This document shows, piece by piece, positions 54,667 to 64,000 of a stretch of 64,000 bases of DNA (position 1 is its first letter; each line of letters starts with the position of its first letter). Origin of the DNA: an uncultured Monoglobus sp. (GTDB lineage Bacteria > Bacillota > Clostridia > Monoglobales > Monoglobaceae); the NCBI GenBank assembly GCA_947628795.1, contig CANRBF010000008.1:62001-126000 (forward strand). The letters are read 5' to 3'. Position numbers and translations under genes: made by a program. The notes beneath the pieces were generated by a model. That model made no database searches and was not told where the DNA came from. It saw only the letters and a list, made by a program, of their open reading frames with translations.

Positions 54667-55596
54667 TCAGCCAAACAGCGGCGTGGATAAGTACCTTTCA
54701 CCCGTGTCCGGAAGGATAGCGACAATATTCTTACCCTTATTTTCCTCCCGTTTTGCAAGCTCTGTTGCGGCCCATACCGCCGCGCCCGAGGAAATTCCGA
54801 CAAGAACACCGTCCGAGTGCGCGATAGCTCTGCCGGTCCTGAACGCGTCTTCATTTTTAACTTTGATAATTTCGTCATAAATATTTGTGTTTAACGTATC
54901 GGGAACAAATCCCGCGCCTATGCCCTGTATCTTATGGGGCCCCGGTTTGCCTTCCGAAAGCACGGGCGAATCCGCCGGTTCCACAGCTATGATCTTGATA
55001 TCGGGATTTTTTGATTTTAAAAATTCACCCACACCGGAAATTGTTCCTCCGGTTCCGACTCCCGCGACAAATATATCGACCTTTCCGTCTGTATCTTCCC
55101 AGATTTCGGGGCCTGTAGTTTCTCTGTGATAAGCGGGATTTGCCGGATTTGTAAACTGGCTCGGAATAAAGCTGTTTTCGATTTCCTCGGACAGCTTCTG
55201 CGCCTTCGCGATCGCGCCCTTCATGCCCTTTGCTCCGTCGGTCAGCACCAGTTCCGCGCCATACGCCTTTAACAGATTTCTGCGCTCTACACTCATCGTT
55301 TCCGGCATCGTTATAATAAGCCGATATCCTCGCGCCGCCGCAACAGAAGCGAGACCTATGCCTGTATTACCCGAAGTCGGCTCAATTATGACCGTTCCCT
55401 GTTTCAGCTTGCCCTGCTGTTCCGCTTCGTCGATCATAGCCTTTGCGATTCTGTCCTTTACCGAGCCAGCCGGATTGAAATACTCAAGCTTTGCTATAAT
55501 TTTTGCTTGCAGATCGTTTTTCTTTTCATAATTTGTAAGCTCAAGCAGCGGAGTTTTTCCTATAAGATCCGTGATTTGCTTATTGATTTTTGACAT
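54667..55596 (-). CDS. cysK: Cysteine synthase (O-acetylserine sulfhydrylase)
   Basis: 309 residues from the ATG at 55596 (AAAGGAG upstream), the CysK length. PLP-lysine region '[18 protein letters not shown]', substrate loop '[19 protein letters not shown]', '[23 protein letters not shown]', '[22 protein letters not shown]' and '[11 protein letters not shown]' are intact. It makes cysteine from O-acetylserine and sulfide. Has its own strong promoter. A second, shorter paralogue lies at 57037-57954 in the nitrogenase-like operon, so sulfide fixation is represented twice. Confidence 0.95.
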
Positions 55597-55632
55597 TTTG
55601 CAGCATCTCCTTTTTGAAATTTTCATGTTTGT

Positions 55633-55661
55633 ATTATATGACGGGCGAAACAACGTGTCAA
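55633..55661 (-). promoter_or_regulatory. Promoter of cysK
   Basis: Minus-strand TTGACA (55656-55661), 17-base spacer, TATAAT (55633-55638); leader of about 30 bases with no riboswitch. Confidence 0.8.
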
Positions 55662-55752
55662 TCGCGCTTTATATGAATAATTTTTAATTTTTTTATATGC
55701 GAAAATTTTTAAAAATTTTTATATATCAACATTCATGCTTCCCGTTCTGTAT

Positions 55753-56934
55753 TTATTTACCGCCCCTTTCATAGTAATCATCAAGAAAATTATATTCCCT
55801 CTCACCATCGTGATAGCCTATAATCGTCGACAGATTGACGTTATGCACGCTGTTAAAAATATTCGTTTCGATATACGGACTGACGCCTCGGAACCGCTTT
55901 ATAAGTTCTTTCATTTCCTGCCGCTTGGAACTTACATCACCGTTACACTCGGTACAGCTATCCGTAAAGCGGCAGGCGCATTGAATAAACTGTAAATCGT
56001 TGCGCTCTGCCCACGCAATTATATCCTTTTCTTTAACCATATACAAAGGGCGTATAAGCTCCATTCCCGGATGATTGGTACTGTGAAGCTTAGGCATCAT
56101 TGTCTGGATCTGCGCACCATAGAGCATACCCATTAAAATCGTTTCGATAACATCGTCAAAATGATGTCCGAGAGCAATTTTGTTACAGCCGAGTTTTTGC
56201 GCTTCCTCATAAAGATATCCGCGCCTCATTCTCGCGCATAAATAACACGGATTTTTTTCAACATGAGCGACGGAGTCAAAAATGTTTGTTTCAAATATGT
56301 GTATCGGAATATTTAACAGCCGCGCATTATCCTCAATTTTTTTGCGGTTTGCGTAATTGTAGCCCGGGTCCATAACGAGAAATTCCACATCGAATTCAAC
56401 TGCGCCGTGCTTGTGGATTTCCTGCATACATTTCGCCATAAGCATCGAATCCTTGCCGCCGGAAATGCATACAGCAATTTTATCGCCTTCCTTTATCAAC
56501 TCATACTTATTGATACCTTTTATAAATTTCCGCCATATTGTTTTTCTGTAAGTTTTAATAATGCTTCGCTCAATTTCGGCGCAGCGCTCCGCGTCAAATT
56601 CATCGTTTGCATTTTTATCCATCTCACACAGCACATTTTTGAGATATCCGAGATACCCGACCGGCAAATGATACGCGTCGTGTCCCGCGTCACACAGCAG
56701 CTTTGTAATATCTCCGCTTATTTCACCCGACTGACAAAAAATATATACCGCCTTATCAGTAGGCAAATCGTACATATCCTGCATACACCGGGCCGGAATA
56801 TTAACCGCTCCCGGAATTGTACCGAGCCGATATACTTCTTTCGGCCTTATATCCACAAGCGATATTTTATTAAAATCTATATTTTTTAATTCATCAAGAG
56901 TTATAGTTCTATCGTCCATCAAGCACAATCCCAT
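55753..56934 (-). CDS. Rhodanese-TtcA/PP-loop fusion, putative sulfurtransferase
   Basis: 393 residues (an ATG at 56919 is an alternative). The N-terminal rhodanese domain (about 8-105) has active-site Cys67 in 'YIFCQSGEISG'. The C-terminal TtcA-like domain has P-loop 'SGGKDS' (158-163), 'CYLCARMRRG' with Cys230/Cys233 and Cys321 in 'CACRFTDSC', the three cysteines that hold a 4Fe-4S cluster in TtcA/TtuA enzymes. TtcA thiolates cytidine-32 of tRNA; the fused rhodanese would deliver persulfide sulfur directly. Own promoter, between two cysteine synthase genes. It could be a tRNA thiolase or a sulfur carrier for the neighbouring system. Confidence 0.88.
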   Translation of the reverse strand: MGLCLMDDRTITLDELKNIDFNKISLVDIRPKEVYRLGTIPGAVNIPARCMQDMYDLPTDKAVYIFCQSGEISGDITKLLCDAGHDAYHLPVGYLGYLKNVLCEMDKNANDEFDAERCAEIERSIIKTYRKTIWRKFIKGINKYELIKEGDKIAVCISGGKDSMLMAKCMQEIHKHGAVEFDVEFLVMDPGYNYANRKKIEDNARLLNIPIHIFETNIFDSVAHVEKNPCYLCARMRRGYLYEEAQKLGCNKIALGHHFDDVIETILMGMLYGAQIQTMMPKLHSTNHPGMELIRPLYMVKEKDIIAWAERNDLQFIQCACRFTDSCTECNGDVSSKRQEMKELIKRFRGVSPYIETNIFNSVHNVNLSTIIGYHDGEREYNFLDDYYERGGK

Positions 56935-56962
56935 TCATATTAAACCTATGTATTTGATATGA

Positions 56963-56991
56963 ATTATACCACTGTTATTTAACAATGTCAA
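56963..56991 (-). promoter_or_regulatory. Promoter of the rhodanese-TtcA gene
   Basis: Minus-strand TTGACA (56986-56991), 17-base spacer, TATAAT (56963-56968), directly after the terminator of the upstream operon. Confidence 0.8.
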
Positions 56992-56994
56992 TAG

Positions 56995-57026
56995 AAAAAC
57001 GGCAAAAAATGCTTTTGCCGTTTTTT
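56995..57026. terminator. Terminator of the nitrogenase-like/sulfur operon
   Basis: AACGGCAAAA/TTTTGCCGTT stem with loop AATGC, U-rich on both strands, 11 bases after the cysteine synthase stop. Confidence 0.85.
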
Positions 57027-57036
57027 CACGTAATTG

Positions 57037-57954
57037 TCAAAATCCATATATTCCGGAGCTGAAATACCTGTCTCCGCGATCCGGAAAAATCACGACTATG
57101 TTCGAGCCGTCCGATACGGTTTCCGACAGCTTTACCGCCGCCGACATAGCCGCTCCGGACGATGTTCCGGCAAAGATGCCCTCATTGCGCGCGAGCATTT
57201 TTACCTGCTTTGCCGCTTCGGCGTCGTTTACCTTGATGACCTCGTCTACCAATGACATATCCATCGTGTCGGCAATAAAATCATTGCCTATTCCCTCAAT
57301 GTTATAATCCTTATGCTCTCCGCCTCCTATTACCGAACCGACGGGATCGGCAAGTACGCCGCGGATATTCGGATCCTGCTCTTTCAAATATTTTAACACT
57401 CCGCTGTATGTTCCTCCGCTGCCCGCGCCGGCAACAAGATAATCGATCCTTCCGTCCAGATCCTCATATATCTCCCTGCCCGTTGTTCTGTAATGCGCGT
57501 CGGGGTTACTTTTATCCGTAAACTGATCAAGGGTTACGGCTCCCGTTATACTTTCCTTAATTTCCTCCGCCTTTTCAGCCGCTCCCATCATGCCCAGCTC
57601 GCGCGGAGTATTTATTATCTGCGCGCCCAAGGCGCGCATGAGGGTCTGTTTTTCCTGTGAAAATTTGGTAGGCACAACAAAAATCAGCTTATATCCGCGC
57701 CCCAAAGCCGCAAACGCAATTCCGAGGCCCGTGTTTCCCGCTGTTCCCAGCACAACGGTTCCGCCCTTTTTCAGCCTTCCGCTTGCTTCCGCCGCGTCAA
57801 GCATTGCCTGACCCACACGGTCTTTTACGCTGCCGGCGGGATTATACAGTTCAAGCTTGGCAAACAAATTTATTTCGGGTCTTATGCCGCTGTTGTTAAG
57901 CTTTACAAGCGGGGTATTGCCTATCAAATCATGCATTGAATTATAGTAATGCAT
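57037..57954 (-). CDS. Cysteine synthase-family PLP enzyme, second copy
   Basis: 305 residues from the ATG at 57954 (GGTGGAG upstream), one base after the previous stop. Family motifs: '[19 protein letters not shown]', 'VVLGTAGNTGLGIAFAALGRGY', 'AGAGSGGTYSGVLKYLKEQDP' and 'AGTSSGAAMSAAVKL'. The substrate loop has GTAGNTG where CysK has PTSGNTG, which recalls CBS-like and O-phosphoserine- or O-acetylhomoserine-using relatives, so the acceptor may not be O-acetylserine. Together with the gamma-lyase/synthase immediately upstream it resembles the mccA-mccB reverse transsulfuration pair. Last gene of the operon. Confidence 0.88.
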   Translation of the reverse strand: MHYYNSMHDLIGNTPLVKLNNSGIRPEINLFAKLELYNPAGSVKDRVGQAMLDAAEASGRLKKGGTVVLGTAGNTGLGIAFAALGRGYKLIFVVPTKFSQEKQTLMRALGAQIINTPRELGMMGAAEKAEEIKESITGAVTLDQFTDKSNPDAHYRTTGREIYEDLDGRIDYLVAGAGSGGTYSGVLKYLKEQDPNIRGVLADPVGSVIGGGEHKDYNIEGIGNDFIADTMDMSLVDEVIKVNDAEAAKQVKMLARNEGIFAGTSSGAAMSAAVKLSETVSDGSNIVVIFPDRGDRYFSSGIYGF

Positions 57955-57955
57955 A

Positions 57956-59116
57956 TCACTCCACCCTGCTTTCCCGTATCGCGCCGTCCAGATCGGCAAT
58001 AATATCCTCCCAATGCTCGATACCGGGGGATATTCTTATGAGTCCTTCGGTAATACCCACCTTTTGACGTATTTCATACGGAATAGACGCGTGAGTCATG
58101 CTCGACGGATGGCATATGAGCGATTCCGCGCCGCCCAGACTTTCGGCGAGGGCGATCAGCTTCAAGGATCTGAAAAACTTTTTAATATCATAATTCTCAT
58201 GAAGCTCGAACGAGATCATCGCGCCTCCGTTTTTCGCCTGCTTTTTGTTGGTTTCGTAGCCGTCATCGGACGGAAGTCCCGGATAATATACCCTTTTCAC
58301 CGCGTCGCTTTCCGTAAGGTACCGCGCGATCTTTTCCGCGTTTTCAACATGTCTGTCCATGCGCACGCCAAGTGTTTTTATTCCCCGTATGAGCAGGAAC
58401 GAATCAAACGGCTGCAAAACTCCGCCGGTGGAATTTTGTATAAACGCAAGACGTTCGGCAAGCGAAACGTCATTCACTACGGCAAGTCCCGCGACAAGGT
58501 CGCCGTGTCCGCCCAGATATTTTGTTGCGCTGTGAATTACAATATCCGCGCCGAATTTGATCGGACGCTGCAAATACGGCGTCATAAACGTATTGTCCGC
58601 TATTGAAAGTATACCGTGTTTATGCGCAAGATCGGACACAGCTTTCAGATCCGTAACTGTCATAAGCGGATTTGCCGGCGTTTCTATGTATATCGCCTTT
58701 ACGTCCGGCGTGATTTTCTTGTCAAGCGACAGCAAATCGGTTGTGTCCTCTATCGAATAGCCTATGCCGAAATGATCAAACACTTTATCAAGCACGCGGA
58801 AAGTTCCGCCGTAAACATTCGACGAAATTATGAGCTTATCTCCGCTTTCAAACAAGCTTAAAACAGCCGTGATCGCCGCCATGCCGGACGCGAAAGCAAA
58901 GCCCGCGATGCCGCCCTCCAATTCGGCGATAAGTTTTTCAAGCACGGCGCGGGTGGGATTGCCCGTTCTCGAATACTCCCATCCCTTGTGCTTGCCAAGC
59001 TCCTCCTGCTCGTATGTGGAGGTTTGGTATATGGGTACGTTTACGGCGCCCGTAAGCGGTTCGCTGTCAAAACCGCCGTGTATCAGAGCCGATTCAATAT
59101 AATTATATTTTTTCAT
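57956..59116 (-). CDS. Cystathionine gamma-lyase/gamma-synthase family PLP enzyme
   Basis: 386 residues, the usual length of the Cys/Met metabolism PLP family. Conserved segments: 'VPIYQTSTYEQEELGKHKGWEYSRTGNPTRAVLEKLIAELEGG', PLP lysine in 'IHSATKYLGGHGDLVAGL' and 'GGAMISFELHENYD', 'ALAESLGGAESLICHPSSMTHAS'. Members act as cystathionine gamma-synthase, gamma-lyase, or methionine gamma-lyase; sequence alone does not separate them. The pairing with the following cysteine synthase-like gene favours reverse transsulfuration (MccB-like). It lies 61 bases after the cysteine desulfurase gene in the nif-like operon. Confidence 0.9.
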   Translation of the reverse strand: MKKYNYIESALIHGGFDSEPLTGAVNVPIYQTSTYEQEELGKHKGWEYSRTGNPTRAVLEKLIAELEGGIAGFAFASGMAAITAVLSLFESGDKLIISSNVYGGTFRVLDKVFDHFGIGYSIEDTTDLLSLDKKITPDVKAIYIETPANPLMTVTDLKAVSDLAHKHGILSIADNTFMTPYLQRPIKFGADIVIHSATKYLGGHGDLVAGLAVVNDVSLAERLAFIQNSTGGVLQPFDSFLLIRGIKTLGVRMDRHVENAEKIARYLTESDAVKRVYYPGLPSDDGYETNKKQAKNGGAMISFELHENYDIKKFFRSLKLIALAESLGGAESLICHPSSMTHASIPYEIRQKVGITEGLIRISPGIEHWEDIIADLDGAIRESRVE

Positions 59117-59177
59117 TTTACACCTCTTTCAAATTTCATATTCTCTCCGCATCCCGCGGCATGTCAAGCCGCCCGGC

Positions 59178-60335
59178 TCAAGCCCACACCGGAGAAGTAT
59201 TACGCAGATTTTCCACAGCCTCTTTCACCGATTTTATGATATATTCGGCTTCTTCATCGGTATTATACTCGCTCAAAGATATTCTGAGCGAACCGCGGGC
59301 CGCCTCCTCGGGAACGCCTATGGCGAGCAGGACATGGCTCGGCAAAGGCGACGCCGAGGTACAGGCCGAGCCCGACGATGCGGCTATTCCCTTATCATCA
59401 AGCATCAGCAGCAAGCTTTCGCCTTCTATGCCTTCAAAGCTGACATTTATATTTCCCGCAAGTCTTTTTTCTCTGTCTCCGTTCAGTATGGTATTCGGAA
59501 TGTCGAGAAGACCGCCGATCACTTTATCTCGGAGCCTGCTTAAATATTCATTGTTTTTATCTATGTTGTCCGCCGCCTCTTTTAAAGCCGCGGCAAGACC
59601 GACTATTCCCGGAATATTCTCTGTTCCCGCGCGTCTGCCCTTTTCCTGTCCGCCTCCTTCTATGAGTTTCACAAGAGGGATACCGCGCCTTGCGTACAGC
59701 GCTCCCGCTCCTTTCGGTCCGTGAAACTTATGAGCCGAAACAGAAAGCATATCTATATTTTGCTTCGCGGCGTCGATATGAAGATGTCCCGCCGCCTGCA
59801 CAGCGTCAGTATGAAAGATAACGCCTCTTTCGCGGCAGACCGCTCCTATTTCGGAAACAGGCTGAATTGTGCCTATTTCGTTATTGGCGTACATGACCGT
59901 CACCAGCGCGGTATCGCTTCGTATTTCGCTTTCCACATCCCGGACGTTTATAATTCCGTTTCTGTCCGGTTCAAGCAGGGTTATTTCAAACCCCTTTTTT
60001 TCAAGTTTTTCTAACGTGCGCAATACCGCGTGGTGTTCAAATTTCGTTGAAATTATATGTTTTTTGCCTTTTTTTGATCCGATTTCTGCCGCTGATACAA
60101 TGGCCTGATTATCCGATTCACTGCCGCCGGAGGTGAAGGTTATTTCGGATGAAAATTCGGCTCCTATTACCCGAGCAACTTCCTCGCGGGCATTATCCAG
60201 CGCGTCTTTCGCGCGCTGTCCAAAGCTGTGCAAGCTTGACGGATTGCCGTATATCTCATCCAAATACGGAAGCATCGCTTTTTTTTCGGTTTCGCTAAGC
60301 CGTGTGGCAGCGGCGTTATCCGCGTAAATATACAT
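59178..60335 (-). CDS. nifS: Cysteine desulfurase (NifS/IscS family)
   Basis: 385 residues. 'MYIYADNAAATRLSETE' start, PLP lysine in 'SAHKFHGPKGAGAL', catalytic cysteine loop 'SSGSACTSASPLPSHVLLAIG' (short-loop group II-free type with SACTS, as in NifS/IscS) and 'RISLSEYNTDEE'. It takes sulfur from cysteine for Fe-S cluster assembly. Only 11 bases downstream of the NifH-like gene, so it probably supplies the many clusters that this nitrogenase-like system needs. Note 'GGGQEKGRRAGTEN', the substrate-binding arginine region. Confidence 0.93.
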   Translation of the reverse strand: MYIYADNAAATRLSETEKKAMLPYLDEIYGNPSSLHSFGQRAKDALDNAREEVARVIGAEFSSEITFTSGGSESDNQAIVSAAEIGSKKGKKHIISTKFEHHAVLRTLEKLEKKGFEITLLEPDRNGIINVRDVESEIRSDTALVTVMYANNEIGTIQPVSEIGAVCRERGVIFHTDAVQAAGHLHIDAAKQNIDMLSVSAHKFHGPKGAGALYARRGIPLVKLIEGGGQEKGRRAGTENIPGIVGLAAALKEAADNIDKNNEYLSRLRDKVIGGLLDIPNTILNGDREKRLAGNINVSFEGIEGESLLLMLDDKGIAASSGSACTSASPLPSHVLLAIGVPEEAARGSLRISLSEYNTDEEAEYIIKSVKEAVENLRNTSPVWA

Positions 60336-60346
60336 TTTAAATTCCT

Positions 60347-61216
<870 letters not shown>

Positions 61217-61254: not shown

Positions 61255-62130
61255 TTATCCGTGTGAGAATGTATCCTTATGCGCAATTCTCTTTAAATAT
61301 ATTTGGTCGCCGTAATCCTTTTCACCCGGCACGCCCACGGCGTCGGCGCGGCAGCGCTGACAGTGGCGGAACACGTCTATATACTTTTCCGCTTTTTGTC
61401 TTGCGCCGTCTACCTCAACGCAGGAAGGCGCGCGGCAGTCCGACAGTTCGTGCTGCGGGATAAGCGGGATTATGTTATATATCGACGCGCCCGCCTCGCT
61501 TACCGTTTTTGCTGTTTCCTCTATGTGACCGTCGTTTATTCCCGGAACAAGCACCGTGTTTACTTTAACGGTAATGCCCGCCGCGCTAACCAGCCGTATG
61601 CCTTCGAGCTGATTTTTAATAAGTATCTCAGCGGCCTCGACGCCTGTATAATGTACGCCGTGATAAAGGATGCCGCCGTTTAATTTCGCTTCGATTTCCG
61701 GGTCTACCGCGTTCACCGTGACCGTCAGTGAGTCTATTCCCGTTTCTATTATTTCCTCCGCCTTTTCCGGCAGGAGCAGTCCGTTTGTGCTCATACATTT
61801 AATGATTTTCGGAAACTTCGATTTAATTAATCCGAAAGTCCTGAGCGCGCAGTCCGTGGCGAGAGTGTCGCCGGGGCCCGCTATTCCCGCAACGGTAATA
61901 TCGGGACACAGCTCCAGTGATCTCGCGATCACGTCTACCGCCTCCTCCGGTTTTATCACCGTTGAGGCTACACCCGGACGTTTTTCGTGATCGTTTATTT
62001 TTCTGTCGCAGAACTTACATTCAATATTACATGTCGGACTTATCGGGAGATGTATTCTGCCCGTCTGTCCCTTTTTACCCAAAGCGAAACAGGGATGCTT
62101 TGTCGTAAGCTCTTCATAGCTTATTGCCAT
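61255..62130 (-). CDS. nifB: NifB-like radical SAM protein
   Basis: 291 residues, NifB core without the C-terminal NifX domain. Radical SAM cysteines 34/38/41 in 'SPTCNIECKFCDRKIN', N-terminal 'TKHPCF' with Cys14, 'GIAGPGDTLA' SAM-binding loop, and the C-terminal cluster-binding 'LSDCRAPSCVEVDGARQK' and 'HCQRCRADAVGVPG', typical of short NifB enzymes of anaerobes. NifB builds the carbide-centred Fe8S9C core used by nitrogenases. Its start overlaps the end of the NifX-like gene by 10 bases. Presence of NifB implies that the component-1-like protein uses an FeMo-co-type core rather than a tetrapyrrole. Confidence 0.93.
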   Translation of the reverse strand: MAISYEELTTKHPCFALGKKGQTGRIHLPISPTCNIECKFCDRKINDHEKRPGVASTVIKPEEAVDVIARSLELCPDITVAGIAGPGDTLATDCALRTFGLIKSKFPKIIKCMSTNGLLLPEKAEEIIETGIDSLTVTVNAVDPEIEAKLNGGILYHGVHYTGVEAAEILIKNQLEGIRLVSAAGITVKVNTVLVPGINDGHIEETAKTVSEAGASIYNIIPLIPQHELSDCRAPSCVEVDGARQKAEKYIDVFRHCQRCRADAVGVPGEKDYGDQIYLKRIAHKDTFSHG

Positions 62131-62462
62131 TCGTCACCGCTCTCCTTAACTAATTTATTTAATACCGCGCTTATGGGAAAGGGCGCTTCGTAAACCTCAA
62201 AGCCGCGGCTTTCCATAAAGCCCGCCGCGCCTTGACCTATACGGCTTACTAATATCACAGAGCAGTCGGATAAAGCCTTTGCCGTATTTTCAAAGCCGCT
62301 TTCCTCGTGCGTCCCCATATTACAGCAAGGCGCTATATTTCGCTTTTCTATATATTGAAATTCTCCGTCACGAAGCTCAAATATCAGAAAAGAATCCGCT
62401 TTCCCAAAGTGCTTGTTGATGATCTTGCCGTCGCTGCTCGCAACGGCGGCTCTTATTGTCAT
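62121..62462 (-). CDS. NifX/NafY-like iron-molybdenum cofactor-binding protein
   Basis: 113 residues, a single dinitrogenase iron-molybdenum cofactor-binding domain: 'RAAVASSDGKIINKHFGKADSFLIFEL', 'YIEKRNIAPCCNMGTHEESGFENTAKALSDCSVILVSRIGQGAAGFMESRGFEVYEA'. Such proteins carry NifB-co or the finished cofactor; the fused NifX domain of long NifB proteins is here a separate gene, overlapping nifB by 10 bases. His-Phe-Gly-Lys at 'NKHFGKAD' and the 'CC' pair are the likely cluster contacts. It follows an attenuator-like terminator at 62492-62542. GAGGAAGG precedes the ATG. Confidence 0.88.
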   Translation of the reverse strand: MTIRAAVASSDGKIINKHFGKADSFLIFELRDGEFQYIEKRNIAPCCNMGTHEESGFENTAKALSDCSVILVSRIGQGAAGFMESRGFEVYEAPFPISAVLNKLVKESGDEWQ

Positions 62463-62491: not shown

Positions 62492-62542
62492 AAAACAAAA
62501 AACCGTCTTGCGTACCGCTTCATATTAAAGCCGCAAAACAGT
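62492..62542 (-). terminator. Attenuator terminator between DUF2292 gene and nifX-like gene
   Basis: Minus-strand stem ACTGTTTTGCG (62542-62532) with CGCAAGACGGT (62512-62502), an inner GCTT/AAGC hairpin, then TTTTTTG followed by T7. It overlaps the 3' arm of the small hairpin at 62540-62563, so the two are mutually exclusive. Confidence 0.7.
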
Positions 62543-62563
62543 CTCTGATTTTTTCAGTCAACT
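62540..62563 (-). promoter_or_regulatory. Antiterminator-like hairpin, copy 2 (before nifX-like gene)
   Basis: Minus strand: AGTT pairs with GACT, bulge GA against A, CTGA pairs with TCAG, loop of five A. Copy 1 at 62943-62968 has the same geometry with CTAA/TTAG, a compensating A-T to G-C change. The 3' arm is shared with the terminator at 62492-62542. Confidence 0.65.
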
Positions 62564-62714
62564 ATTTTATTCGTATTTTTTCCTGCCGTTCGATCTGAAC
62601 GACCACTCCGTCCTGTATCACCAGTGTTACGGAGCCGTAACCTGTTTCATTAATTATCTTTTTTGTTTTATCAAAAACATCATCCAAGCTGTTTTTTCTT
62701 TTTTCACCGCTCAT
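62562..62714 (-). CDS. DUF2292 (YezD-like) small protein, 50 residues
   Basis: A 50-codon gene: GAGG eight bases before the ATG at 62714, product 'MSGEKRKNSLDDVFDKTKKI' continuing with 'GYGSVTLVIQDGVVVQIERQE'. The core 'YGSV-LVIQDG-VVQIE' is the DUF2292 signature; in B. subtilis and others members (YezD) are linked to sulfur assimilation genes. It is the first gene of the nitrogenase-like operon and its stop codon TAG overlaps the start of the antiterminator-like hairpin. Role unknown; possibly a small regulator or sulfur carrier. Confidence 0.8.
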   Translation of the reverse strand: MSGEKRKNSLDDVFDKTKKIINETGYGSVTLVIQDGVVVQIERQEKIRIK

Positions 62715-62804
62715 TTTAAAAACCTCGCCATCTTAATTATTTGTTCAACATAATACACATTCGTTTCATCGCGCTCATCTCCGTTCCCGATAAAATTGTA
62801 TTCA

Positions 62805-62833
62805 ATTTTAAAAGCTTCTCCCGCTTTTGTCAA
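62805..62833 (-). promoter_or_regulatory. Promoter of the minus-strand nitrogenase-like operon
   Basis: TTGACA (62828-62833), 17-base spacer, TAAAAT (62805-62810) on the minus strand; transcript begins near 62798, about 85 bases before the DUF2292 gene. Confidence 0.7.
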
Positions 62834-62905
62834 TAGAGCGGATACTGAATAAATTTTAAAGTTTTTATATATTAAAATTTTTAAAAATTATTCCCTTTGC
62901 CGATG

Positions 62906-62934
62906 TTGACAATTTTTTTCGCGTGGTGTATTAT
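62906..62934 (+). promoter_or_regulatory. Promoter of the nitrogenase component-1-like gene
   Basis: TTGACA (62906-62911), 17-base spacer, TATTAT (62929-62934). The transcript would begin near 62941, so the antiterminator-like hairpin is at its very 5' end. Confidence 0.8.
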
Positions 62935-62942
62935 ATGCGTTA

Positions 62943-62968
62943 AAGTCGACTAAACATATTAGAGACTT
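62943..62968 (+). promoter_or_regulatory. Antiterminator-like hairpin, copy 1
   Basis: AAGTC pairs with GACTT, bulge GA against A, CTAA pairs with TTAG, loop ACATA. The 3' arm is also part of the terminator stem at 62962-62995, so only one structure can form. Same design as copy 2 in the divergent operon. Confidence 0.65.
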
Positions 62969-63004
62969 GTCCGCGTATTTTACCGGACGGGTCTCTTTTA
63001 TTTT
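62962..63004 (+). terminator. Leader terminator before the component-1-like gene
   Basis: 12-bp stem GAGACTTGTCCG (62962-62973) with CGGACGGGTCTC (62984-62995), including two G-U pairs, then TTTTATTTTATT. It lies between promoter and start codon, hence an attenuator. Confidence 0.8.
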
Positions 63005-63039: not shown

Positions 63040-64000
63040 ATGAGTACAGTTAATTTGAAAACGCCCGAAGTGTCGGTACGCGAAATTCGTCTCGGCTCAA
63101 TTACGGGATTTCAGGGAAGCGCATCCGAGCTTTTGGACTGCGTCGGATGCGGAAAACTAAAAGATAAGAAACGTTCTTTTTCACAGTGTCTCGGCTGCTC
63201 GACGTCAAACGCCGCCTGCACCACGATCCTTATTCAGGACGCGGTAACTATCAGCCACGGACCTGTCGGCTGCTCGACATGCCTGCATGAGTTTGCTTTT
63301 ACATACCGCGTAAACGCGCCGCTGCGCGGCGTGGACAGACCGACGCAGCGCAGGGTTTATTCAACCAATCTTGAGGAAAAGGACACGATTTACGGCGGAG
63401 CCCTAAAGCTTGAAAATACAATTCGGGAAGCGTATAAGCGTTCAAAGCCGAGCGTAATTTTTGTGCTGACCACCTGCGCCGCGGGCATTATAGGCGACGA
63501 TGTGGAGAGCGTTACTAACTCATTGGAGGATGAACTGGGCATTCCGATCGTGGCGATCTTCTGCGAGGGATTTCGTTCCAAAATGTGGACGTCCGGTTTT
63601 GACGCGGGCTATCACGGTATCGCGAGAAAACTGATAAAGCCCGCCGAAAAAAAGCGTAATATAATAAATGTAATAAATTTCTGGGGCAGCGACGTATTCA
63701 ACAAATGGTTCAACCGATTCGGCTATGAGGCAAATTATCTCACGCCGTATTCGACATACGAGACCATACAGCATTCCTCCGAGGCGGCGTGCACCGTTCA
63801 GGCGTGCGCGACATTAGGCTCGTATCTCGCGACCGCGCTCGATCAGGAATTCGGTGTTCCGGAGCTTAAAAACTCACCGCCCTACGGTATAGCGCAGACC
63901 GAAAGATGGTTCAGAGAGCTGGGCCGGCTTATCGGCAAGGAAGATGAAATAGAGGAATTCCTGAAAGAGGAAAGAGAAAAATATATGCCCCAAATTGAGG
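63040..64000 (+). CDS. Nitrogenase component-1-like subunit (NifD/NifE family), 3' end outside window
   Basis: 320 residues visible from the ATG at 63040 (AGGAAAGG upstream). P-cluster ligand positions are kept: Cys50 or Cys53 in 'SQCLGCS', Cys78 in 'HGPVGCSTC' and Cys146 in 'VLTTCAAGIIGDD'. The cofactor cysteine of NifD (275) corresponds to Cys256 in 'QACATLGSYLATALDQEFGVP'. An extra 'CVGCGK' (34-37) precedes these. It should therefore hold a P-cluster and a NifB-type cofactor. It diverges from the NifH/NifB operon, both leaders sharing the same attenuator element. Sulfur-metabolism context favours a methylthio-alkane-reductase-like role over N2 fixation; the partner subunit would lie beyond the window. 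Confidence 0.88.
   Translation, partial: MSTVNLKTPEVSVREIRLGSITGFQGSASELLDCVGCGKLKDKKRSFSQCLGCSTSNAACTTILIQDAVTISHGPVGCSTCLHEFAFTYRVNAPLRGVDRPTQRRVYSTNLEEKDTIYGGALKLENTIREAYKRSKPSVIFVLTTCAAGIIGDDVESVTNSLEDELGIPIVAIFCEGFRSKMWTSGFDAGYHGIARKLIKPAEKKRNIINVINFWGSDVFNKWFNRFGYEANYLTPYSTYETIQHSSEAACTVQACATLGSYLATALDQEFGVPELKNSPPYGIAQTERWFRELGRLIGKEDEIEEFLKEEREKYMPQIE

Follow-up and report, generated by a model that had tools for sequence, protein, structure and literature searches.

RAT sites, the targets of the BglG-SacY-LicT antiterminators, are small hairpins with asymmetric internal loops in which the 3' arm overlaps a terminator, and they are bound by CAT domains. In these systems the regulator gene often lies beside a target site, and one regulator serves several sites. 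The sites of the ANTAR proteins (NasR-EutV) consist of two hairpins with hexaloops. Control of sulfur genes in Bacillota is usually ascribed to SAM-I riboswitches, Met and Cys T-boxes, and CymR.

We analysed a 64,000-nucleotide stretch (the window) of a contig from an uncultured Monoglobus sp., which carries two copies of a small hairpin, one on each strand, near nitrogenase-like genes (Table 1). Both copies consist of AGUY/GACU and CURA/UYAG stems separated by a GA / A internal loop. They have the geometry (AGTY, GA, CTRA, five-base loop, TYAG, A, GACT) that a sequence-only reading had described. Its span for the minus-strand copy was exact, whereas that for the plus-strand copy, 62943-62968, extended one base too far on either side. 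A search with the pattern AGTYGACTRA-N5-TYAGAGACT returned only these two copies from the window, and the number remained two when up to three mismatches were allowed, against 0.01 expected from shuffling. A third exact copy lies elsewhere in the same genome (G000:C8:131005-130982, minus strand), about 6 kb away and about 5 kb past the end of the window. It precedes genes for a methionine ABC transporter of the MetNIQ type (MetN-MetI-MetQ-like), and an open frame ends there as well. Chance as the origin of the window hairpins is ruled out by the shuffles and by this third copy.

Copy 1 begins 9 nucleotides after the end of a -10 box and so appears to lie at the 5' end of its RNA; the NifD homologue behind it is followed, beyond the window, by NifK-like and NifX-like genes. 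Copy 2 begins more than 200 nucleotides behind its sigma-70-like promoter, and its 5' end falls within the stop codon of a DUF2292 (YezD) gene that the first reading had overlooked. The 50-residue product scores 53.7 bits against Pfam PF10055, for which the curated cut-off is 22. Both hairpins had been placed in leaders between promoter and target gene; for copy 2 a simple leader does not hold, as the DUF2292 gene precedes it and the NifX-like gene comes after. In both copies the 3' arm of the hairpin is also the 5' arm of an intrinsic terminator, as had been proposed.

Table 1. Features of the window around the two hairpin copies
Feature	Position	Strand	Details
Hairpin copy 1, antiterminator-like	62944..62967	+	AGUC GA CUAA ACAUA UUAG A GACU; model R1, 33.3 bits, E 1.7e-7
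Hairpin copy 2	62540..62563	-	AGUU GA CUGA AAAAA UCAG A GACU; model R1, 35.8 bits, E 2.8e-8
Intrinsic terminator overlapping copy 1	62961..63003	+	5' arm is the hairpin 3' arm, then U tract; MFE -29.4 kcal/mol, z -7.2
Intrinsic terminator with U tract overlapping copy 2	62492..62546	-	MFE -23.6 kcal/mol, z -4.4
Sigma-70-like promoter, TTGACA-17-TATTAT	62906..62934	+	11/12 matches; consensus match only
Sigma-70-like promoter upstream of DUF2292, TTGACA-17-TAAAAT	62805..62833	-	11/12 matches; consensus match only
Nitrogenase-like NifD homologue, 490 aa, extends past the window	63040..64000	+	Oxidored_nitro 9e-85
DUF2292 / YezD-family gene, 50 aa	62562..62714	-	PF10055 E 1.5e-14
NifX/NafY-like protein, first gene after copy 2	62121..62462	-	PF02579 6e-20
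NifB-like radical SAM protein	61255..62130	-	PF04055 1e-20
NifH-like protein	60347..61201	-	PF00142 1e-128
Sulfur genes in the same direction as NifX-NifB-NifH: class-V aminotransferase (NifS-like), Cys/Met PLP enzyme, two cysteine-synthase-like PALP enzymes, rhodanese/PP-loop protein	54667..60335	-	Pfam matches

Within the genus and family of this organism, the element and a NifD-like or NifH-like gene are mostly absent and are held only by this genome and that of another species of the genus (G009). The latter has a near-identical NifH/NifB/NifX/DUF2292 part (contig C104), which ends within DUF2292 near the contig end, and no NifD-like gene was found in that assembly. Because of this patchy distribution, the island that carries the element was probably acquired.

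The element corresponds to none of the classes collected in Rfam, in agreement with the initial impression that its geometry matched no familiar one. An Rfam scan of the window gave no match at gathering score, and a scan of 15 element loci at E up to 1 gave no known bacterial cis-regulator at the element; a sub-threshold match to the plastid psbJ 3'UTR in one locus (L034) was taken as chance. The element resembles RAT/LicT systems in being an asymmetric-loop hairpin with a terminator-overlapping 3' arm, an adjoining candidate regulator gene, and many sites per regulator. However, it differs in hairpin length, loop and sequence, in serving a sulfur regulon rather than sugars, and in that DUF2292 lacks a PTS regulation domain and matches no known domain in sequence or fold; the neighbouring candidate at the window locus matches PF10055 only. 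Attenuation would thus work in the manner of RAT/LicT, an analogy of mechanism and not of family membership. Protein-dependent antitermination at terminator-overlapping hairpins, as proposed here, is also shared with ANTAR (NasR-EutV) sites, but those are tandem hexaloop hairpins whereas the present element is a single hairpin with an A-rich loop of four to six nucleotides. The SAM-I riboswitch (S box, RF00162) likewise controls premature termination, in the same pathways and often in the same leader; it has no similarity to the hairpin in sequence or structure, and the hairpin is a separate, second control point.

Two published annotations are close to the element in their targets. The PyrR binding site (RF00515), also a bulged attenuator hairpin, was considered because the ssu and met operons of Bacillus methanolicus carry the label (SAM)-(PyrR) (PMC4342826). 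It was rejected, as the 15 loci gave no Rfam match to it at E up to 1 and the targets are sulfur and not pyrimidine genes; compared by description only, the B. methanolicus label might denote the present element. Naville and Gautheret (2010, PMC2965389) describe an 'ABC-leader', an unnamed attenuator that precedes an alkanesulfonate transporter in bacilli, as well as another common element located ahead of an unknown gene and of a sulfonate transporter. By description, the 'ABC-leader' is similar in being a predicted antiterminator/terminator before a sulfonate transporter, although neither a protein partner nor a wider regulon was suggested for it; it possibly comprises a few members of the present element. 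In the open literature we found no description of the function of DUF2292/YezD or of the hairpin. In B. subtilis, yezD is classed as unknown, is up in deep starvation, and can be deleted with retention of viability (PMC6385201).

The hairpin is a structured RNA of Bacillota, Clostridia and Bacilli included, with a conserved part of 23-25 nucleotides. In an alignment of 59 unique hairpins, 98.3% of cells are paired, compared with 84.6% in shuffles, and 96 cells have changed on both sides, compared with 26.6 in shuffles (0/500). These two-sided changes fall in six of the eight pairs, and when the partner is slid along, pairing drops to 27-54%. Further matches, in an alignment of 89 distinct sequences that was itself fitted to the model, are 97.5% paired with 130 two-sided cells. 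The covariation first noticed between the two window copies thus extends over 59 and then 89 distinct sequences, and further copies before homologous operons are present in other families of Clostridia. Around the internal loop A, C and G-A-G are invariant in the 59 hairpins. Pair 4-22 is U-G in 55/59 copies and other pairs use G-U too; the prevalence of U-G at pair 4-22 shows that pairing takes place at the level of RNA.

Near DUF2292 genes, scans that required pairing yielded the same core with varied outer stems (AACU/GGUU, AGCC/GGCU, UGCU/GGCA, UACU/GGUA, UAUU/GAUA and GGCU/GGCC) and inner stems (CAG/CUG, CGG/CCG, UAG/CUA, UGG/CCA, UAA/UUA and UGA/UCA). Loops are four, five or six nucleotides long, so the five-base loop, which is correct for the window copies, is not a fixed part of the geometry as had been supposed. 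A strict form of the element with a U tract occurs in 9/391 genomes of the class, eight of which also have a NifD-like homologue. We also scanned 84,980 species genomes with the pattern GTTGAC-N(9-13)-GAGACT-N(18-48)-AGTCTTTTT, which puts no constraint on the inner stem. Of the 31 stretches recovered, the ones whose inner stem is complementary come almost entirely from Bacillota (Formimonas, Ruminiclostridium, Clostridium, Paenibacillus and MAGs). Strict-pattern matches outside Bacillota (Bacteroidetes, archaea and others) mostly lack complementary stems and were taken as chance; one from Paraprevotella (L045) pairs in 3/3 and was left out of further use, and another match (L006) looks like chance. 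At six loci from C. luticellarii and other Clostridia (L046, L036, L037, L051, L192, L196), several hairpins occur serially before one gene or in a short stretch, and the attenuators can evidently be stacked.

Competition with a terminator is a general feature of the element. Of 87 model matches in further loci, 78 have a 3' arm that overlaps the stem of a U-tract-bearing terminator on the same strand, whereas random positions overlap a terminator in 8.9% of cases. The terminator is the stabler fold in 144/146 instances, with a mean of -22.6 versus -6.5 kcal/mol for the hairpin. The mutual exclusivity of hairpin and terminator suggested for the window therefore recurs in these further matches, and the element is very probably a structured RNA that competes with a terminator. 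Because the terminator is almost always the stabler fold, the hairpin needs help to win, which favours antitermination by a bound factor.

We propose a transcription attenuator with the hairpin as its antiterminator half. Without further input, the emerging transcript would form the more stable terminator and RNA polymerase would halt before the sulfur genes. A factor that holds the small hairpin would make its 3' arm unavailable to the terminator, and transcription would proceed. This factor would most likely be the DUF2292 (YezD) protein, often encoded directly 5' of a hairpin; its gene would remain outside the control of the attenuator, and the protein would act in trans on all genomic copies. 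The sequence-only reading had suggested that one signal, perhaps a sulfur metabolite or an RNA-binding protein, could control both transcripts of the window, and DUF2292 is the best candidate for such a protein. DUF2292 would read the constant parts of the hairpin: the Y-GA-C / G-A-G elements that make up the 2x1 internal loop and the pairs on either side of it, and the A-rich loop. Its binding would be governed by the sulfur state of the cell. Should it bind, antitermination is a considerably more probable outcome than termination.

The genes downstream of the element mostly serve sulfur acquisition and include those for nitrogenase-like NifDK/B/H/X, SsuABC, MetNIQ and CysK, as well as the cystathionine synthase family, ATP sulfurylase, PAPS reductase and MetK. 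Among the genes directly behind 104 elements, the Nif-type group comprises nitrogenase-like component 1 (13), radical SAM proteins of the NifB-like type (8), NifH (4) and NifX (3). Transport is represented by nine permeases, seven of them of the sulfonate/taurine type, and six ABC ATPases of the MetN or SaoA type, and enzymes by Cys/Met PLP proteins (4), cysteine-synthase-like proteins (4), ATP sulfurylases (3), MetK (3) and PAPS reductases (2). A nitrogenase-specific element is ruled out, as the hairpin follows DUF2292 and many sulfur genes other than those of nitrogenases; judged by its neighbours, it is general to sulfur genes. tRNA genes were seen at three of about 58 element loci scanned, all of them Met or Cys and in the same orientation as the hairpin: a tRNA-Met in the metNIQ leader of the Monoglobus genome itself (L004, 11191-11117, minus strand), a tRNA-Cys before a DUF2292-hairpin-metK arrangement (L090, 1748-1677, minus strand) and a tRNA-Met behind a hairpin and OAH sulfhydrylase gene (L052, 343-269, minus strand).

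In five SAM-I-rich genomes, a SAM-I riboswitch is located within 450 nucleotides upstream on the same strand of 16/49 hairpins, and downstream of one, with 50-380 nucleotides between riboswitch and hairpin. Cytobacillus spongiae, which was outside the training set, provides an example: a SAM-I riboswitch, yezD, and the hairpin AGCTGACTAGACAAACTAGAGGCG at the yezD stop codon are followed by a terminator ending in CGCCTCTTTTT and then by cysH, an inorganic phosphate transporter family gene (pit), sat and cysC. Such arrangements appear to be two attenuators in series, one responding to SAM and one to a different signal. Since the riboswitch in front already reads SAM in several genomes, our best guess for the signal is a sulfur status other than SAM. 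No SAM-I riboswitch was found in the genome of the window or in the seven congeners tested.

The distribution of the hairpin among genomes follows that of DUF2292. Counting matches to model R1 at E<=0.1, it is present in 60/80 DUF2292-positive and 5/80 DUF2292-negative genomes (p 3e-20). Only one of these five (G053) is convincing; matches in the other four look like chance, several apparently lying in coding sequence. Because some model sequences came from DUF2292-positive genomes, 40 such genomes outside the training set were counted apart, and 15 have matches at E<=1e-3 compared with 1/80 DUF2292-negative genomes (p 1e-7). Model R1 detected no hairpin in five genomes that have nitrogenase-like genes and lack DUF2292 (G107, G237, G281, G329, G330). 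Within a single genus (g44), the DUF2292-positive members G074, G243, G282, G331 and G399 have two to four hairpins each and the DUF2292-negative G107 and G181 have none. In twenty of the 80 positive genomes, no hairpin was detected at E<=0.1; their DUF2292 matches are weak in many cases and strong in some, such as G105, G159 and G444. G053 has a good hairpin and terminator with no DUF2292 match in the 3-kb locus or in a genome scan, as if carried by a mobile element. At three loci (L111, L112 and L187, from G236, G169 and G053), TGCTGACCGGAAAACCGGAGGCA hairpins (AGCT... in L187) are found before small phage-like genes. The richest genomes hold 22 (G371), 19 (G354), 17 (G471) and 14 (G510) hairpins for one to four DUF2292 genes or domains, an excess that fits a trans-acting regulator. 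As the hairpin is found almost only in genomes that carry DUF2292, this protein is its likely reader.

Since the earlier scans near DUF2292 had required pairing, we also searched 57 loci for the core YGAC-N(10-12)-GAG within 200 nucleotides 3' of the DUF2292 stop codon with no pairing imposed. The core was present in 27/57 loci, compared with three upstream and none antisense, and of these 27 loci, 26 have all three inner pairs and 23 have all four outer pairs. The distance from stop codon to hairpin ranges from -3 to 128 nucleotides.

The DUF2292 protein itself has no solved relatives detectable by sequence. An AlphaFold2 model built from only three sequences (pLDDT 77, pTM 0.45) consists of a helix and three strands and matches no known fold, RNA-binding or other. 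In several genomes (G509, G592, G640, G686, G730, G737 and others), two DUF2292 domains occur in one frame of 115-146 codons, which suggests fused dimers and would fit a dimeric protein. A search of viral contigs and phage records found no DUF2292, and plasmid records contained one, from Cytobacillus, which is the source of the annotated example described above. A divergent DUF2292 ending in ...PIRIEExKKSIKL accompanies the same hairpin at L114, L115, L116, L118 and L238-L241 (G102, G267, G397, G080), where the genes behind the hairpin are secreted or cell-surface-like and some resemble DUF4430 by eye; the system may in these genomes be used beyond sulfur.

We place the probability of protein-dependent antitermination with DUF2292 as the RNA-binding regulator at about two in three, and its part as binding partner is likely. 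The switch could instead be real and read by another protein, in which case DUF2292 would be sulfur-related and simply accompany the regulon. No RNA-binding fold is recognised in DUF2292, genomes with a strong DUF2292 match and no detected hairpin exist, as does the converse in G053, and co-occurrence and adjacency are no proof of binding by what may be a sulfur protein of the same set. However, hairpin presence tracks DUF2292 and not the target genes, and DUF2292 is mainly 5' of the hairpin (27 versus 3 loci), outside its control, whichever of nifB, cysH, sat, cysK or metK comes next; we consider a different binder unlikely. Direct binding of a sulfur metabolite by the hairpin is much less probable still. 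Its small size and the position of copy 1, apparently within a few bases of the transcript 5' end with no space for a larger aptamer, disfavour a riboswitch, as do the lack of conserved flanks by eye, the lack of any Rfam family match even at E up to 1, and the tie to one protein family, which would be unexpected for a riboswitch. The sulfur regulon and the strictly conserved internal loop and A-rich loop are the features that such a riboswitch would account for.

In Cytobacillus, as for copy 2 in the window, the DUF2292 stop codon marks the start of the hairpin, and the third Monoglobus copy also has an open frame ending at it, as would be expected if DUF2292 or another short ORF were a leader whose translation controls hairpin folding. 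Such coupling is disfavoured by the variable spacing from stop codon to hairpin; moreover, copy 1 is too near its promoter for an upstream ORF, and DUF2292, as a conserved family of proteins, differs from a variable Cys- or Met-rich peptide, which together make this explanation very improbable. The least credible possibility is that the site is a palindromic DNA operator bound by a transcription factor, or that it reflects chance or a decoration of the terminator. The site does resemble an imperfect inverted repeat near a promoter, but the U-G at pair 4-22 and the other G-U pairs would not pair in palindromic DNA, the two sides of the internal loop are unequal, the same-strand terminator overlap is 90% versus 9%, and some copies lie far downstream of promoters.

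Antitermination through DUF2292 would add a new RNA element to the sulfur control of bacteria. It is reasonably likely, judging from sequence comparison, that the DUF2292 (YezD) proteins form a new family of antiterminators, very small and RNA-binding, which, with the 24-nucleotide hairpin, provides sulfur-responsive attenuation across Bacillota and has spread with nitrogenase-like, sulfate, sulfonate and methionine genes, often behind SAM-I riboswitches as a second input. This would give the uncharacterised family PF10055, present in the model organism Bacillus subtilis as YezD, both a function and a target to bind. It would also name a regulon for the poorly understood nitrogenase-like enzymes of Clostridia, and since that regulon is shared with sulfate, sulfonate, methionine and cysteine genes, it supports a role of these enzymes in sulfur metabolism.
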